This document shows positions 3,996 through 10,401 of a DNA stretch of 10,509 nucleotides, in pieces. The position numbers and the translations under genes are program-made. How positions within the stretch are numbered: the first letter of the stretch is position 1; each line of letters begins with the position of its first letter. The DNA comes from an uncultured Gemmatimonadota bacterium. GTDB lineage: Bacteria; Gemmatimonadota; Gemmatimonadetes; Gemmatimonadales; GWC2-71-9. The notes under the pieces are model-generated. The model was not told the DNA's origin. It was given only the letters and a program-made list of their open reading frames with translations, and did not search any database. The stretch lies in NCBI GenBank assembly GCA_913009915.1, contig CAJVYZ010000040.1, forward strand, positions 1 through 10,509, in the 5' to 3' direction.

Positions 3996-6035
3996 ATGTC
4001 CCCCCCCCACCGCCGGATCGGCGTCTCGGTCATCCTCGTCGTTGCGATTGCCCAGCTGAGCCCGCGGCTGGTGGTGAGCCAGGGAGTAGAGGACCTGGCG
4101 CAGATCCTCGCCGTCGAGGACAGCCGTCGGTGGGACGGGGGGCTGTTCGAAACCAGTCTCAAGAACCCCGAACCGCTCGTCCGCCGGACGGCGGCCATGG
4201 CGATCGGCCGGGTGGGGGACTGGCGGGGGACCGAACTGCTGTTTCCGGTATTGCTCGACCCGGACACCACGGTCCAAACCACGGCCATGTTCGCCTTGGG
4301 CCTGCTGGAGGACACGCTCGCCGTCGGGCCCATCCTCGAGCGGCTGCGTGCCGTCCCGGCGATCAGCCAGGATCCCGCCGTCGAGGGCGTGGCGGCCCTT
4401 GCCAAGATAGGCGGCCCCGAGGCGGCTGCCTTCATCGCATCGCTGCTGGACGGAGCCTCGCGGGCGGCGCTGGAGAACCGGGACCCCCTCGTGGCACAGG
4501 CGTTGATCGATGCTTGGCGGCTCCGCGAAGAAGCACCGGTTGGCGCTCTCATGAACTACCTGGATCACGACAAGGAAGACTGGCGTTGGCGCGCGGTGGT
4601 CAGCCTCTCCCGGCTGCAGGCCCCGGAAGCGGGCCAGCTGTTTCTCAGGGCGCTGGCCGACAAGTCGCCCACCGTCCGGGCGGCGGTGGCCGCGAGGCTG
4701 ACCAAACGGTACGCCGCGCGTTCGGGCCTGGACGCCGAAACCTGCATGGATCTCCTGGCCAACACCGTCAATGATCCCGACGGCCGGGTGCGGATCAACG
4801 CGCTGCGGGCTCTGGCAACCTTCCGCGACCCTGAAACGGGACCGGCCATCGCGGTTGCCCTCGACGATCCGCTCCTCAACGTCAGGGTGCAGGCCGCACA
4901 GGCGCTCGGCCGGGCCGGAGGTCCGCTGGCGATCACCGAACTAACCCGCGTCTTCACCGGTGCCGATTTCTTCGCCCTGCAACGGGAGGCCTTGCTGGGA
5001 CTCTCCCGTAGCGACAGTACGGCGTTCACCGCGGTGGCAGCCACCTGGGGACAGAGCGGCGATTGGCGTCTGCGCGCCGTGGCGGCAGACGGGTGGGAAC
5101 GGGTGCTCCCCGGCCCACACCCCGACAAACCCGATTTCTTGACGGACCCGGATTCACGGGTCGTGGCCGCGGCCCTTGGTGCCTGGAGCCGTCAGGTTCA
5201 GGACCCCACCGATGATTTGATCCGCGAGGCCCGGCGCCTCATTTCCCATCCGGACCCCGTCGTCAGGGTGGCCGCCGCCGGCGTGCTCGGCTCCGTGGCC
5301 GACCCCAACGATGTCTCGGCACTGGGAGCCATGTTCCAGTTGGCACAGAGCGACGCCATGCCTGACGCCGCCTGGGCCGCCCTGGACGCGCTTCTGATGA
5401 TCGCCGACGCTAGCGCGGATGGAGAATCACGAGTCTCGTTGAGGTTTCTCGCCAGGACCCCACGGCCAAGCAATTACCTCATCCGCAGCTGGGTGGAGAT
5501 AAACTGGCCCTTGGCCCTGGAGCGGTGGGGACCGGCGTATCCTATTGAAACGCAACTCTCCCTTCAGGACTACCGTGCAGTTGCGGAGCGTTTCCTCGTC
5601 AACATAGGTGAGGCCTATCCGCATGTCTTCGTCGAAACGGAGCGCGACGGAACCCTCGAGATCGAATTGTTCGGGCCCGATGCACCGCTGACGGTGCAAC
5701 GGTTCCTGAGCCTGGTGGACCGCCGGTTCTTCGACGGCATGCGCTGGCATCGTGTGGTGCCTGATTTTGTTGTGCAAACAGGGGACCCCCGGGGTGATGG
5801 GTGGGGGGTAGCCCCAGGGGCAGTTCGAGACGAACTCAATCGACGGCGATACCGGACCCGCTATGTGGGAATGGCGCTCTCGGGACCGGATTCCGGGTCC
5901 AGCCAATGGTTTATTACCCTAAGTCCGCAACCCAGACTCGACGGCACCTACACGGTGTTCGGACGGGTCGTCGGCACCAGCCCGGGGCTGAAGCGCCTGA
6001 CGCAGGGAGACCGGATCCGCACCATCCGTCGATGA
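3996..6035 (+). CDS. Secreted HEAT-repeat protein with C-terminal cyclophilin-type peptidyl-prolyl isomerase domain
   Basis: The 679-residue product begins with a likely signal peptide (hydrophobic residues 8-20, possible cleavage near VVS-Q at 28-29), so it is expected in the periplasm. Residues about 55-470 are tandem alpha-helical HEAT or PBS-lyase-type repeats, with recurring DP-x-VR-x-AA-AL-G patterns (for example PLVRRTAAMAIGRVG and PVVRVAAAGVLGSV), likely a protein-binding scaffold. Residues about 540-679 form a cyclophilin domain: WHRVVPDFVVQTGDPRG at 584-600 holds the catalytic Arg586 and the Phe/Gln pair (591, 594), and SSQWFITL at 635-642 and LDGTYTVFGRV at 648-658 follow. Relative to human cyclophilin A, Trp121 and His126 are replaced by Arg and Tyr, as expected for a cyclosporin-insensitive bacterial type. 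The TGA overlaps the next ATG, so the two proteins are translationally coupled. A role in folding outer-membrane proteins is inference. Confidence 0.9.
   Translation: MSPPHRRIGVSVILVVAIAQLSPRLVVSQGVEDLAQILAVEDSRRWDGGLFETSLKNPEPLVRRTAAMAIGRVGDWRGTELLFPVLLDPDTTVQTTAMFALGLLEDTLAVGPILERLRAVPAISQDPAVEGVAALAKIGGPEAAAFIASLLDGASRAALENRDPLVAQALIDAWRLREEAPVGALMNYLDHDKEDWRWRAVVSLSRLQAPEAGQLFLRALADKSPTVRAAVAARLTKRYAARSGLDAETCMDLLANTVNDPDGRVRINALRALATFRDPETGPAIAVALDDPLLNVRVQAAQALGRAGGPLAITELTRVFTGADFFALQREALLGLSRSDSTAFTAVAATWGQSGDWRLRAVAADGWERVLPGPHPDKPDFLTDPDSRVVAAALGAWSRQVQDPTDDLIREARRLISHPDPVVRVAAAGVLGSVADPNDVSALGAMFQLAQSDAMPDAAWAALDALLMIADASADGESRVSLRFLARTPRPSNYLIRSWVEINWPLALERWGPAYPIETQLSLQDYRAVAERFLVNIGEAYPHVFVETERDGTLEIELFGPDAPLTVQRFLSLVDRRFFDGMRWHRVVPDFVVQTGDPRGDGWGVAPGAVRDELNRRRYRTRYVGMALSGPDSGSSQWFITLSPQPRLDGTYTVFGRVVGTSPGLKRLTQGDRIRTIRR
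4000..4008 (+). repeat. Run of nine C residues just inside the HEAT-cyclophilin gene
   Basis: The codons directly after the ATG at 3996 contain C9. A change of one C would shift the signal peptide out of frame. The frame after the tract is the correct one for the whole protein, so the tract length given here is consistent with an intact gene. Confidence 0.8.
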
Positions 6036-8866
6036 TGCGCCGCCGGCTCGTCGTGGCCGCACTGCTGGTGGCGGGCTCCTTGGCAGCCACTCCGGCCGCG
6101 GCCCAGTTTTTCGCCTTCGGCCAGAACAAGATTCAGTATCGCGGCTTCGACTGGCAGGTCATCCACGGTCCCCACGTCGACCTGTATTACTACCCCGAGG
6201 AAGAGCACATCGCCGGGGTGGCGCTGGAATATGCCGAGGCAAGTTACGACACCTTGAAGCTGCGATTCGGGCATGAGGTATCCACCCGAATCCCCCTCAT
6301 CGTCTACGCCTCACACGTCGACTTCAGCCAGACCAACATCCTGCCGTTCGTACCGCCCGAAGGCATCCTCGGCGCCACCGACTTTCTGAAGCACCGAATC
6401 TCCATGCCCTTCCGGGGCAACCTGTACGAGTTCTTCGCCACGCTGCGTCACGAGATGGTGCACGTGTTCCAGATGGGGATCTCGGTGCAGGCGTACAATC
6501 GGGCACCCCGTCTCAGTCGCCCGTTCATCCCCCTGTGGTGGAGTGAAGGGTTGGCCGAGTGGTGGTCCTCCGGGGAGAGCGCCCGCGACGAGATGATCCT
6601 TCGCGACCTGGTGTTGACTGGCCGGATGCCGTCGTTCGAACAACTGACGTTCGTGCGCGGCGGGCTGGAGTATCCCCTCGGTGGCCGGATCCACCGGTGG
6701 CTGGCCAAGGTGTACGGGGACTGGCGTGTCGCCGTGTTCTATCGGGAGATGTGGCGCTATGCCACCTTCGAGGAAGCCATCTTCGCCATCTACGGCAAGA
6801 CGCTCGAACAACTGAGCGAAGAGTTCCGCTTCGCCATGATGCGCTACTACAACGACGCCATCGACGAGCGCATGCCGTTGTCCGTGGCCGGCACCAAGGT
6901 GGCCGACCGGGCCATCAACGCCACCTACGTGGCGGGGAGCGCCAACGATGGCGGCAAGGTGGTCTACTTGGCCCCCGGCAACGGATACATCTCCATCTAC
7001 CTGGAAGATTTGCGAACGGGAAAGCGCGGGAAGGTCATTACCGGGGGGCGCTCGGAAAACTATGAAACGTTCCACCCGTTCTCCTCACGCCTGGACGCCA
7101 GCCGTGAAGGGTACCTCCTGTTCTCGTCGCAACGACACGAACGCGATGCCCTGGTCATTTGGAACCTGGTCGAGGGCGACCTGGCCGGGCGCTACCAGTT
7201 CCCCGACATCACCTCGATCGTCTCGCCCCACTGGGCCCCCGATGGCCTGAGCATTTTCTTCAGCGGGCTGTCGGACGCGGGCATCTCGGACCTCTACCGC
7301 GTCTGGCTACCCGACGGGCGGGTCGAACGGCTGACCGACGACCAGTACCAGGACCTGGACCCGGCGCCCAGCCCGGACGGCACCCGGTTGGTGTGGGCGT
7401 CCGACCGCACGGCCGGAGGCCTCGACGGCGCCAAGAACCTCTTCGTCATGGATTTGGCAACCAAGGACATCCGCCAGATCACCTACGGAATGTGGGTCGA
7501 CGAAACACCGGTATGGGCCGGGAGCGGGCGAGTGTACTACGCGTCGGACCGCGACGGGATCCTCAACGTGTTTTCCATCGACGAGTTCGGGGCCGGACGC
7601 CGGGAGACCTCCGCCTGGACCGGCGCGTTCGACCCCTCGTACGTGCCCGAGAAGGATGGATTGGTGGTGTCGGGCTACCATCGACAATCGCTTAACGTCT
7701 ACTTCCTGCCGCCCGACGCGGAAGCGGAACAGTTCACCTTTGCCCCTCCGACGATGTTGGAGGAACACAGTCGGTGGCAGTGGCCTGCCAGCGACGAGAC
7801 TGAAGCGATGGCCCTGCAGAGTGAGCCCTACGAGAGGAGGATGACGGTCGACATCGCTGCCGCCGAAGCGGTCGCCATCCCCGGTTTCGGAGCGGCCCAA
7901 GGGGCGGCGATCATGTTCAGCGACTTGCTCAACGACGACGTCATCGTCGCATCGATATCCACCTACTCGGGCCCCAACTTTTCGGACATTTTCGACAACA
8001 TCAACATTTCGGCCTACTACATCAACCGAAGGCGGAGAGTGAACTGGGGCTTGGGCGTGTTTCGCACCAACGGGACCGCGTTCGAAGCCGGCAGCCGGTT
8101 CGCCTCGTATATCGAAAAGGCAATCGGCGGCATCGGACTGTTGAGCTATCCCTTGAACCGATTCAACCGGATCGAGGCACAGCTCCAGGTGGCGTACTCC
8201 GATCGCTTCGATTTCGTTCTGGCCCCGCGCGACCCGCGGCGCACCGGCATCATCGTCTCCAATTTCGTCAGCTTCATACGCGACAACTCGTTGTGGACCC
8301 CGGTCGGCCCCATCGACGGCGGCCGGTTCAGCATTACCGCGGGCATCTCCAAGGACTTCACCAATGCCCGATTCGACAGCTTCCTCCTCGCCGTCGATTG
8401 GCGGCGGTACTTCCGGATCGCCGCCCACACGGCCTACTCGCTCCGTCTGATCGGTTGGTATAGCGGTGGCGACCGGCCCACGCGCATCAACATCGGCGGC
8501 ACCCACGCCATTCGCGGCTTCCCGCTCTTCGGCGAGGTCACCGGCACCAAGGCGTGGATGATCAACAATGAACTCCGCTTCCCCTTCCTCAGGTACCTGA
8601 CCTTCGGCACCCCGGCCGGAGCGCTCCGCTTCCCCGCACTCCAGGGCGCCCTCACCTTCGACCTGGGGCAGGCCACCATCCCCAACGTGACCCGGCGGGG
8701 CGTCCTCGGCAGCGCCGGCGCCGGGCTGCGCTGGGGGCTCTGGCCCTTCGCCGTGGTGCGGATGGACGTCGGCTACCGGTTCGGCTCCGGCTTTGCTGCC
8801 TACGGCCTCTCTCCCAATTGGTGGGAGGGTAGCTATCTTCAGGTCTGGTTCGGCTTCGACTACTAG
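6032..8866 (+). CDS. Three-module outer-membrane protein: gluzincin-type metallopeptidase, TolB/PD40-like beta-propeller, Omp85-type barrel
   Basis: The 944-residue product starts with a signal peptide ending ATPAAA-Q (about residue 24). Residues about 35-285 are a peptidase-MA-like domain: HEMVH at 140-144 gives two zinc ligands and the catalytic Glu141, and WWSEGLAEW at 169-177 offers Glu172 as third ligand. Residues about 290-600 carry PD40-type propeller repeats (HWAPDG at 400-405, PSPDGTRLVWASDR at 446-459, VYYASDRDGILNVFSID at 501-517). Residues about 610-944 look like an Omp85/BamA-type barrel: the loop-6 motif IGGTHAIRGF at 821-830, then NNELRFPF at 845-852, and a terminal strand ending in aromatic FDY. 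The peptidase and propeller would lie in the periplasm or at the surface, joined to the barrel. ATG 6032 overlaps the previous stop; ATG 6035 is an equal alternative. The frame extends back to 5801, but that lacks a signal peptide. The substrate is unknown. Confidence 0.88.
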   Translation: MMRRRLVVAALLVAGSLAATPAAAQFFAFGQNKIQYRGFDWQVIHGPHVDLYYYPEEEHIAGVALEYAEASYDTLKLRFGHEVSTRIPLIVYASHVDFSQTNILPFVPPEGILGATDFLKHRISMPFRGNLYEFFATLRHEMVHVFQMGISVQAYNRAPRLSRPFIPLWWSEGLAEWWSSGESARDEMILRDLVLTGRMPSFEQLTFVRGGLEYPLGGRIHRWLAKVYGDWRVAVFYREMWRYATFEEAIFAIYGKTLEQLSEEFRFAMMRYYNDAIDERMPLSVAGTKVADRAINATYVAGSANDGGKVVYLAPGNGYISIYLEDLRTGKRGKVITGGRSENYETFHPFSSRLDASREGYLLFSSQRHERDALVIWNLVEGDLAGRYQFPDITSIVSPHWAPDGLSIFFSGLSDAGISDLYRVWLPDGRVERLTDDQYQDLDPAPSPDGTRLVWASDRTAGGLDGAKNLFVMDLATKDIRQITYGMWVDETPVWAGSGRVYYASDRDGILNVFSIDEFGAGRRETSAWTGAFDPSYVPEKDGLVVSGYHRQSLNVYFLPPDAEAEQFTFAPPTMLEEHSRWQWPASDETEAMALQSEPYERRMTVDIAAAEAVAIPGFGAAQGAAIMFSDLLNDDVIVASISTYSGPNFSDIFDNINISAYYINRRRRVNWGLGVFRTNGTAFEAGSRFASYIEKAIGGIGLLSYPLNRFNRIEAQLQVAYSDRFDFVLAPRDPRRTGIIVSNFVSFIRDNSLWTPVGPIDGGRFSITAGISKDFTNARFDSFLLAVDWRRYFRIAAHTAYSLRLIGWYSGGDRPTRINIGGTHAIRGFPLFGEVTGTKAWMINNELRFPFLRYLTFGTPAGALRFPALQGALTFDLGQATIPNVTRRGVLGSAGAGLRWGLWPFAVVRMDVGYRFGSGFAAYGLSPNWWEGSYLQVWFGFDY

Positions 8867-8888: not shown

Positions 8889-9608
8889 ATGCTACAACGG
8901 TTTCTGCTTGACCCCCGGACGCTGGTGCTCTATCTTGCCGTCGTGGGCACCGGCTGCAGCTCCGGCCCTGTGACACTGGTGCCGGAGACCGCCCACCGCG
9001 TCGCCGCCGAGGAAGCTTTGGCGTGGTCGGCCGAAACGGTACCAACCGGGTACCAGCTATACCGGTTCAAGTGGAACTTTCGGGATGAACGTGCCAGCGC
9101 CGGTGGCCGAGGCAGCGCCAGGATTGCTCCACCCGATTCTCTGCGGTTCGATGCCGCGGGGCCATTCAACTCGGGCGCCTTGGCGGGCATGGTGGTCGGA
9201 GGGCAGGCCGAGTGGACCGACCCGGCCGACGCCAAGGACACTGTCCTCGACGTCCTGGTGGGCGCCGACTACACGCCGTTGTTCTGGACCATGTTCGGTA
9301 TGGCCCGGCCGGGGGGCGCCACCGATACCCTCACGGCCTTCACCGACATCGACGCCCGCGTCTGGCAATACGTATCGGGACCCGATACCGTCCAGTATGC
9401 CCGCTTGGACGGCGAACAGCCGAAGTTCATCGCGATGGTCCGTCGGGCCGGTAAGCTGATCGGCCGGACCGAGACCCGCCTGGGGGCCGATGGCACACTG
9501 GAATCCGCTCGACTCATCCTGCCGAAGTCCCGGCTCGATCTGGAATTCTACCGGCACAGCACTCCGGATTCGTTCCCGATGGAGATTTGGCGCCCCGCTG
9601 CTCCTTAG
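8889..9608 (+). CDS. Putative lipoprotein, LolA/LolB-like (possible DUF4292 relative)
   Basis: This 239-residue protein has a hydrophobic N terminus ending at Cys23 (VVGTGCSSG). The TG-C positions fit a lipobox, although Gly at -3 is unusual, so lipid attachment is likely but not certain. The mature part reads as beta-rich: GGRGSARIAPPDSLRFDAAGP (72-92), then GMVVGGQAEWTDP, and a charged C-terminal half. A periplasmic half-barrel like that of the LolA/LolB family, which carries lipoproteins or lipids to the outer membrane, is suggested by this layout and the lipoprotein neighbours. I cannot show the fold from sequence alone. No Shine-Dalgarno precedes the ATG, which lies 22 bases after the previous stop. 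The 3' end overlaps the frame of the LptE-like gene. Confidence 0.7.
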   Translation: MLQRFLLDPRTLVLYLAVVGTGCSSGPVTLVPETAHRVAAEEALAWSAETVPTGYQLYRFKWNFRDERASAGGRGSARIAPPDSLRFDAAGPFNSGALAGMVVGGQAEWTDPADAKDTVLDVLVGADYTPLFWTMFGMARPGGATDTLTAFTDIDARVWQYVSGPDTVQYARLDGEQPKFIAMVRRAGKLIGRTETRLGADGTLESARLILPKSRLDLEFYRHSTPDSFPMEIWRPAAP

Positions 9609-10068
9609 CCTCGCCCTGGCCTCATGCTACGGATTCAGTGGCGGCGGCCTGCCGCCCGAGGTCAAGACAGTCGCCATCCTGCCGTTCGACAACCTCACCG
9701 CCGAGCCGACCCTCACCCAACAAGTCATGACTTCCGTCCGTGAGGCGGTGGAGAACAGGCTGGGACTACGGGCCGCCGGTGAAGACCAGGCGGATGCCAT
9801 CGTGCGCGGGACCATTACCCGCTACGACCCCGACCTCCCGGTCGCCTTTCAGGGGGGCGTAGCCAACCAGGTCGACGTCACTCGCAGGTTGGTCCGGCTG
9901 ACGGTCAGGGTGGAAATCTACGACCAGAATGCCGGCCGAACCTTGTGGGAGCGGAACGCATTGACGGTCGAGGGCGACTACGAAACCGGGCGGGAGCAGG
10001 ATGGAATCGACAAGGCCCTGAACCTACTCATCACCGACATCGTGGACGGAGCGCAATCGCAATGGTAG
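9490..10068 (+). CDS. lptE: LptE-like lipopolysaccharide-assembly lipoprotein (start unresolved)
   Basis: LptE is an outer-membrane lipoprotein that plugs LptD in the lipopolysaccharide export machine. Seen: a lipobox LALASC with the acceptor Cys at 9625-9627, then YGFSGGGLPPEVKTVAI, FDN and T in the order usual for LptE (Cys-Gly/Tyr, strand, F-x-N-x-T), then an ADAIVRGTITRY segment and a mature part of about 147 residues. The first in-frame ATG (9490) gives an N-terminal region of about 30 residues before the hydrophobic core, too long for a lipoprotein signal and lying fully inside the upstream gene. No ATG, GTG or TTG lies near 9580, where the signal should begin; ATT at 9568 and CTG at 9598 are the only nearby alternatives. 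An ATG at 9579 is one base out of frame. The start given is therefore the longest possible one. The gene probably belongs to the same operon. Confidence 0.75.
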   Translation: MAHWNPLDSSCRSPGSIWNSTGTALRIRSRWRFGAPLLLSLALASCYGFSGGGLPPEVKTVAILPFDNLTAEPTLTQQVMTSVREAVENRLGLRAAGEDQADAIVRGTITRYDPDLPVAFQGGVANQVDVTRRLVRLTVRVEIYDQNAGRTLWERNALTVEGDYETGREQDGIDKALNLLITDIVDGAQSQW

Positions 10069-10343: not shown

Positions 10344-10401
10344 AGATCGGAAGAGCGTCGTGTAGGGAAAGAGTGTAGATCTCGGTGGTCGCCGTATCAT
10401 T
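10344..10401. other. Illumina TruSeq-type adapter sequence (artifact)
   Basis: The 58 bases begin AGATCGGAAGAGC, continue through GTCGTGTAGGGAAAGAGTGT and end GTATCATT. This is the reverse complement of the Illumina universal adapter. It is sequencing read-through at a contig end, not genomic DNA. Its translations on both strands (RSEERRVGKEC on +, and FFLMIRRPPRSTLFPYTTLF on -) are known contaminant peptides. Confidence 0.98.

Follow-up and report, generated by a model that had tools for sequence, protein, structure and literature searches.

What might an outer-membrane barrel of the Omp85 type do when a zinc peptidase and a beta-propeller stand in the place usually taken by POTRA domains? 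The question is raised by one gene in a stretch of 10,509 nucleotides (the window, contig CAJVYZ010000040.1 of assembly GCA_913009915.1) from an uncultured Gemmatimonadota bacterium. The gene encodes a single polypeptide of 944 residues that comprises a zinc peptidase, a TolB-type propeller and a BamA-type barrel, without POTRA domains. Its domains, conserved active-site residues, lack of POTRA, distribution and gene neighbours were computed here, and we give about an even chance to a function as an outer-membrane-anchored periplasmic protease in the assembly or quality control of outer-membrane proteins.

Architecture of the protein

The coding sequence and its parts are as follows.

6032..8866, + strand: peptidase-propeller-Omp85 coding sequence (P0001), ATG to stop, 944 amino acids plus stop
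6032..6103, + strand: signal peptide, residues 1-24, read from the sequence, ending in AAA ahead of Gln25, with a predicted helix at residues 2-17
6104..6892, + strand: zinc metallopeptidase domain with a predicted gluzincin-type fold, residues 25-287
6449..6463, + strand: HEMVH, residues 140-144, presumed zinc ligands and catalytic Glu
6542..6562, + strand: SEGLAEW, residues 171-177, holding Glu172, the presumed third zinc ligand
6671..6673, + strand: Tyr214, invariant, presumably catalytic or substrate-binding
6893..7711, + strand: TolB-type beta-propeller, about residues 288-560
7712..7843, + strand: linker, residues 561-604, two short helices without a POTRA fold
7844..8863, + strand: Omp85-type 16-strand barrel, residues 605-944
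8510..8521, + strand: IRGF loop-6 motif, residues 827-830, between predicted strands 11 and 12

The start codon shares an ATGA with the stop codon of the upstream gene, which encodes a HEAT-repeat and cyclophilin protein; such a start-stop overlap is a usual sign of translational coupling. A GTG at 5801 was considered as an alternative start and rejected. It would add 77 residues that overlap the upstream gene and precede the signal peptide, so that 6032 is the better start. Gln25, the first residue after the signal peptide, is invariant in 31 of 31 ortholog-plus-paralog rows, and inspection of the sequence revealed no lipobox at the signal peptide.

The first-pass annotation, made from the letters alone, had read a frame with HEMVH and SEGLAEW, PD40-type repeats and an IRGF motif with an aromatic C terminus, and had proposed that a zinc peptidase and a propeller replace the POTRA domains. 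All of these motifs are present, and the proposed replacement is backed by profile matches, by fold comparison and by a confident AlphaFold2 model (pLDDT 87.7, pTM 0.86). The barrel anticipated after residue 610 appears in the model as 16 long strands (residues 605-942), and of the anticipated zinc-site residues His140 and His144 share one helix and Glu172 lies on the next.

At the level of the whole protein, the NCBIfam search found no characterised family and returned only sub-threshold TolB and peptidase propellers. Compared with a viral fold library, the model matched mostly propeller or repeat proteins, all at low TM-scores, and these matches were set aside. Of the 120 homologs listed (of 828), most or all carry the Pfam families PF26549 and PF26550.

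The peptidase domain

The presumed zinc site is strictly conserved. All 27 orthologs keep H140, E141, H144 and E172, as do all 31 rows when paralogs down to 24 percent identity are included; the four residues are also present in each of the 90 rows of the widest alignment (A4), a set partly selected by these very motifs. The conservation in A4 is partly a matter of choice because the 80 far loci considered for it, 72 of which entered, were picked by HExxH and PLWxEG patterns; L059, L066, L071, L084, L114, L115, L122 and L136 were left out as partial, X-containing or near-duplicate. Alignments A1 and A2 derive from whole-protein searches and were not motif-picked. Tyr214 is invariant in all three sets (27, 31 and 90 rows). 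An HExxH followed 20-39 residues on by EG occurs in 121 of 121 proteins (the query and the 120 listed of 828), a pattern that arose in 24 of 20,000 shuffles of the peptidase-barrel sequence.

The peptidase family is clearer from the relatives than from the window protein alone. Peptidase_MA_2 (PF13485) matches the whole protein weakly (E 0.021, 15.1 bits, cut-off 32.4), and the isolated domain, at 17.7 bits, also stays below that cut-off. The same model matches 73 of the 73 rows of family alignment A8 at E<=0.01 (best 1.6e-12), and one relative, L102, exceeds the cut-off with 35.9 bits. A family profile searched against PDB sequences matched bacterial collagenases (best E 0.0042), and a fold search with the isolated domain listed 50 chains that are, by title, collagenases, lugdulysin and aminopeptidases, which we take to be gluzincins. 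As modelled, the fold of the domain is gluzincin-type, clan MA.

Two structure titles bear on Tyr214. In the profile alignment, this residue aligns with residue 549 in a chain of a Vibrio collagenase (counted along the row), and a mutant Y549A of collagenase VhaC is among the titles of the fold matches; the title of a lugdulysin mutant, E242Q Y315F, gives a spacing of 73 residues, equal to that between E141 and Y214. By analogy, Tyr214 might be catalytic. Judged from its conserved residues, the zinc peptidase is apparently active.

Propeller, linker and barrel

Sequence and fold agree on the propeller. It matches PD40 in Pfam (residues 432-472, E 1.7e-9), the best match in the PDB sequence search was TolB (E 5.6e-16), and its closest fold was also TolB.

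The barrel is recognised by the ShlB/FhaC-type profile PF03865 (residues 777-900, E 4.3e-7, 30.2 bits against a cut-off of 22.7), and BamA is among its closest folds. The Omp85 profile PF01103 found no match in the window protein itself, although relatives do match it. Loop 6 of the Omp85/TpsB superfamily carries the motif (V/I/L)RG(F/Y); here Arg828 is present in 90/90 rows and Gly829 in 87/90, and the last residue of the chain is Tyr. With a 16-strand barrel, a profile match and the loop-6 motif, the protein belongs to this superfamily. A POTRA domain is usual in the superfamily, but not universal. No POTRA profile match was found in the protein or on its contig, and only 44 residues of linker precede strand 1. 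Of the profiles from which recognition had been expected, PD40 and a barrel profile matched, the latter of the ShlB/FhaC type and not PF01103, and Peptidase_MA_2 was convincing for the family rather than for the window protein alone.

Distribution and descent

All 61 genomes examined from the genus, family and order gave a match, and 27 of them (own genome included) have a full-length ortholog at 46-100 percent identity. In a sample of the phylum, 147 of 150 genomes had a match at E<=1e-30; a near-whole-length match of at least 536 bits was present in 32, and the best match in most others was a longer paralog. The 19 full-length paralogs examined have 1,018-1,100 residues and 24-35 percent identity in the best segment. 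Fifteen of them entered A1, aligning across all three domains, and the two that were scanned both match PD40, Peptidase_MA_2 and Omp85. At the paralog loci (L028-L046), the next gene comes from one cluster in 9 of 19, and the member in L030 (5569-7050) has a SPOR domain.

Beyond the phylum, at least 466 stretches were confirmed by genome scan and 80 were kept, carrying the labels, as deposited, of Gemmatimonadota, Glassbacteria, Eisenbacteria, Zixibacteria, Calditrichota, KSB1, Ignavibacteria, Neomarinimicrobiota, Rhodothermales, Bacteroidetes and Fermentibacteria. Full-length relatives are found in several phyla of the FCB group. A quick tree of 73 rows clusters by taxon: its labels require 15 changes, where 10 is the minimum and shuffled labels average 43.5. 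Single groups are formed by Zixibacteria, by Calditrichota and by Eisenbacteria, whereas Ignavibacteria require five changes, three rows labelled Gemmatimonadota are placed apart from the main group, and the Bacteroidota label clusters no better than shuffles (84/500 as low). Because the tree clusters by taxon, descent appears, on balance, to have been mostly vertical within the FCB group.

Conserved gene neighbours

The gene lies in a row of same-strand genes in the window.

3996..6035, + strand: protein of HEAT repeats fused to a cyclophilin-type prolyl isomerase, its N terminus signal-like, directly upstream
8889..9608, + strand: lipoprotein, directly downstream, itself without a Pfam or NCBIfam match
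9490..10068, + strand: LptE-like protein (PF04390, E 3.2e-10), whose true start may lie inside the frame

This order is kept at the loci of close orthologs (n=37, at least 45 percent identity, five loci repeating a genome). The HEAT-cyclophilin gene precedes the barrel gene in the same orientation at 37/37, the lipoprotein gene is downstream at 36/37 and the LptE-like gene follows at 35/37, the misses being contig ends; a separate check recovered frames of at least 120 residues at 36 and 35 loci downstream and at 35 upstream. The lipobox cysteine of the lipoprotein, Cys23, is invariant in 30 of 30 rows, over which no Pfam family was found, two chance-level matches aside; for its fold, one could at most guess at a resemblance to LolA/LolB. 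The contig end, 10344-10509, has an exact 58-base adapter-like match at 10344-10401, which we take to be Illumina adapter sequence, and then runs of A and C. It looks like an assembly artefact that cuts off a small frame after the LptE-like gene.

More distant relatives have a different neighbour. Of 69 distant loci (five carry a Gemmatimonadota label), 60 have at least 900 bp downstream. A BamB-like propeller match lies downstream on the same strand within 1.4 kb at 55 of the 69, and at 52 of the 60. None was found upstream at the 59 distant loci with 1.4 kb there, and none further downstream. Since the BamB-like queries were taken from the same loci, the positive count leans on a Pfam scan, in which PQQ_2, a family described as BamB, matches 47 of the 47 such neighbour proteins scanned; that scan also gave three matches inside the barrel gene and one on the opposite strand (L072). 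A strict lipobox pattern is present in 19 of 37 of these proteins. A second conserved gene follows the barrel gene at a distance of about 1 kb in 21 distant loci; the one that was scanned (L082, 7608-8438) has PEGA domains.

Relation to described Omp85 proteins

The first-pass annotation had left open whether the architecture was already described, and one half of it was. Heinz and Lithgow named a WD40-Omp85 subfamily in 2014, with a TolB-like propeller "reminiscent" of a BamA-BamB fusion, and grouped it with the Omp85 architectures that lack POTRA (PMC4104836). The window protein shares with WD40-Omp85 a TolB-like propeller N-terminal to an Omp85 barrel and the lack of POTRA. The passages that describe the subfamily mention neither a zinc peptidase ahead of the propeller nor gene neighbours, and they portray the minor subfamilies as genus-level and probably spread horizontally (PMC4104836), in contrast to the present family, which occurs across FCB phyla with apparently mostly vertical descent. 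The 'Metallo' subfamily of the same survey was considered as an equivalent and rejected, as the text defines it by PF00149 (PMC4104836), which Pfam lists as a calcineurin-like phosphoesterase. No description of a peptidase-propeller-Omp85 protein, and no co-occurrence of 'peptidase MA' with 'Omp85', was found among the papers listed from the open PMC literature, where the name WD40-Omp85 occurs in a single paper. A term search of a Flavobacterium BAM paper (PMC12611786) found none of propeller, BamB, metallo and peptidase. Within the open literature, the barrel-propeller half is already known, and the peptidase and the gene pairings appear to be undescribed.

A possible role in outer-membrane assembly

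Three functions had been suggested from the sequence: a self-anchored outer-membrane protease, a surface-displayed nutrient enzyme and a quality-control factor. The cyclophilin, lipoprotein, LptE-like and BamB-like neighbours favour quality control or assembly, whereas what speaks for the surface or nutrient enzyme is a single resemblance, to secreted collagenases.

An outer-membrane-anchored periplasmic protease might work as follows. The protein would be exported by its signal peptide and inserted into the outer membrane by the C-terminal barrel; in keeping with superfamily topology, its peptidase and propeller would then lie on the periplasmic side, in the usual place of POTRA. Its targets might be outer-membrane proteins, or lipoprotein and lipopolysaccharide-assembly partners, during their assembly. 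A substrate could be held by the propeller together with the partner lipoprotein, which is BamB-like in most of the distant relatives and unclassified here, while the upstream cyclophilin might help it to fold. The zinc peptidase would then cut stalled or wrong products, or mature precursors.

BepA, which has TPR repeats, offers a functional parallel; neither an M48 nor a TPR family was among the Pfam results for the window protein. The relevant passages on BepA describe an enzyme that either promotes LptD or degrades it, and that probably does so at the BAM complex (PMC8423444; PMC13067283); it shares with the proposed role a periplasmic zinc peptidase tied to outer-membrane protein assembly in an LptD context (PMC8423444). 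BepA is a separate M48 enzyme in these accounts, whereas the window protein is MA_2/M9-like and fused to its own barrel. By analogy, a BepA-like role would fit an outer-membrane-held periplasmic zinc peptidase beside chaperone-like and BAM/LPT-like genes.

Several observations weigh against this proposal. The LptD Pfam model matched 0 of 61 genomes, which leaves the LptE link uncertain; because the model matches just 2 of 14 control genomes, we conclude nothing from it on the presence of LptD. The NCBIfam BamB equivalog model, tried on one neighbour protein, scored 128 bits (E 3e-37) against a cut-off of 285, and we therefore write 'BamB-like' and not BamB. PQQ_2 is a broad profile that also matches 11 of 14 control genomes. 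A downstream BamB-like gene is missing from 8 of 60 distant loci, and the window's own operon has no counterpart of it. The same genome also encodes a separate BamA frame with five POTRA domains and an Omp85 barrel (contig label G000 C265). The window protein would therefore not be the main BAM component but would act in parallel or as an accessory.

A POTRA-free insertase or translocase, that is, a second BamA-like barrel for special clients in which the peptidase binds or chaperones without cutting, seems unlikely to us. The barrel fold close to BamA, the invariant Arg828 of loop 6 and the BamB-like gene adjoining at most distant loci agree with insertase activity, which the barrel may possess. 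Conservation of H140, E141, H144, E172 and Y214 argues for catalysis, and the POTRA domains, which in BamA bind partners and clients, are absent. The window protein shares with BamA the 16-strand barrel, and its distant relatives have a BamB-like propeller gene nearby; BamA has five POTRA domains, whereas the window protein has none and adds a TolB-type propeller and a peptidase.

It is improbable that the protein is a surface or released degradative or nutrient enzyme whose barrel exports the peptidase and the propeller, as in the original model of type Vd autotransporters. The closest peptidase folds are M9 collagenases, which are secreted enzymes; identity to these and other gluzincins is about 14 percent, the window domain is fused to an outer-membrane barrel, and collagen cleavage is not implied. 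Pfam found neither a patatin nor a POTRA match, the marks of type Vd, in the window protein. The patatin-Omp85 prototype PlpD likewise has its enzyme domain N-terminal to an Omp85 barrel, with a patatin-like domain and POTRA in place of the zinc peptidase and propeller; its enzyme domain was found to be periplasmic, contrary to the earlier secretion model, and the Omp85 proteins studied before PlpD all promote outer-membrane-protein assembly or protein translocation (PMC11116518). Export would also require about 560 folded residues to pass through a 16-strand barrel, and the conserved neighbours resemble envelope-assembly genes.

A Tol-Pal-like factor, in which the propeller connects the barrel with peptidoglycan or with lipoproteins of the Pal type and the peptidase trims envelope proteins where cells constrict or grow, would suit the TolB match by sequence and fold and the SPOR domain, a peptidoglycan-binding domain, downstream of one paralog (L030), but that neighbour belongs to the paralog and not to the window gene, and we hold this to be quite improbable.

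A broader scenario, in our view less likely than not, can also be put forward. FCB bacteria might possess a second, POTRA-free outer-membrane assembly machine that unites in one polypeptide a barrel of the insertase type, a TolB-type propeller and a protease for quality control, pairs either with a lipoprotein resembling BamB or with a set made up of a periplasmic cyclophilin, a lipoprotein and an LptE-like protein, and has been inherited mainly vertically since early in the group. In several phyla, a conserved and apparently active zinc peptidase is fused to an Omp85 barrel beside BamB-like or LptE-like genes, from which it seems that quality control of the outer membrane may be built into the barrel itself. 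An unassigned subfamily would thereby become a testable protein pair, and many uncultured phyla would gain a candidate envelope factor.
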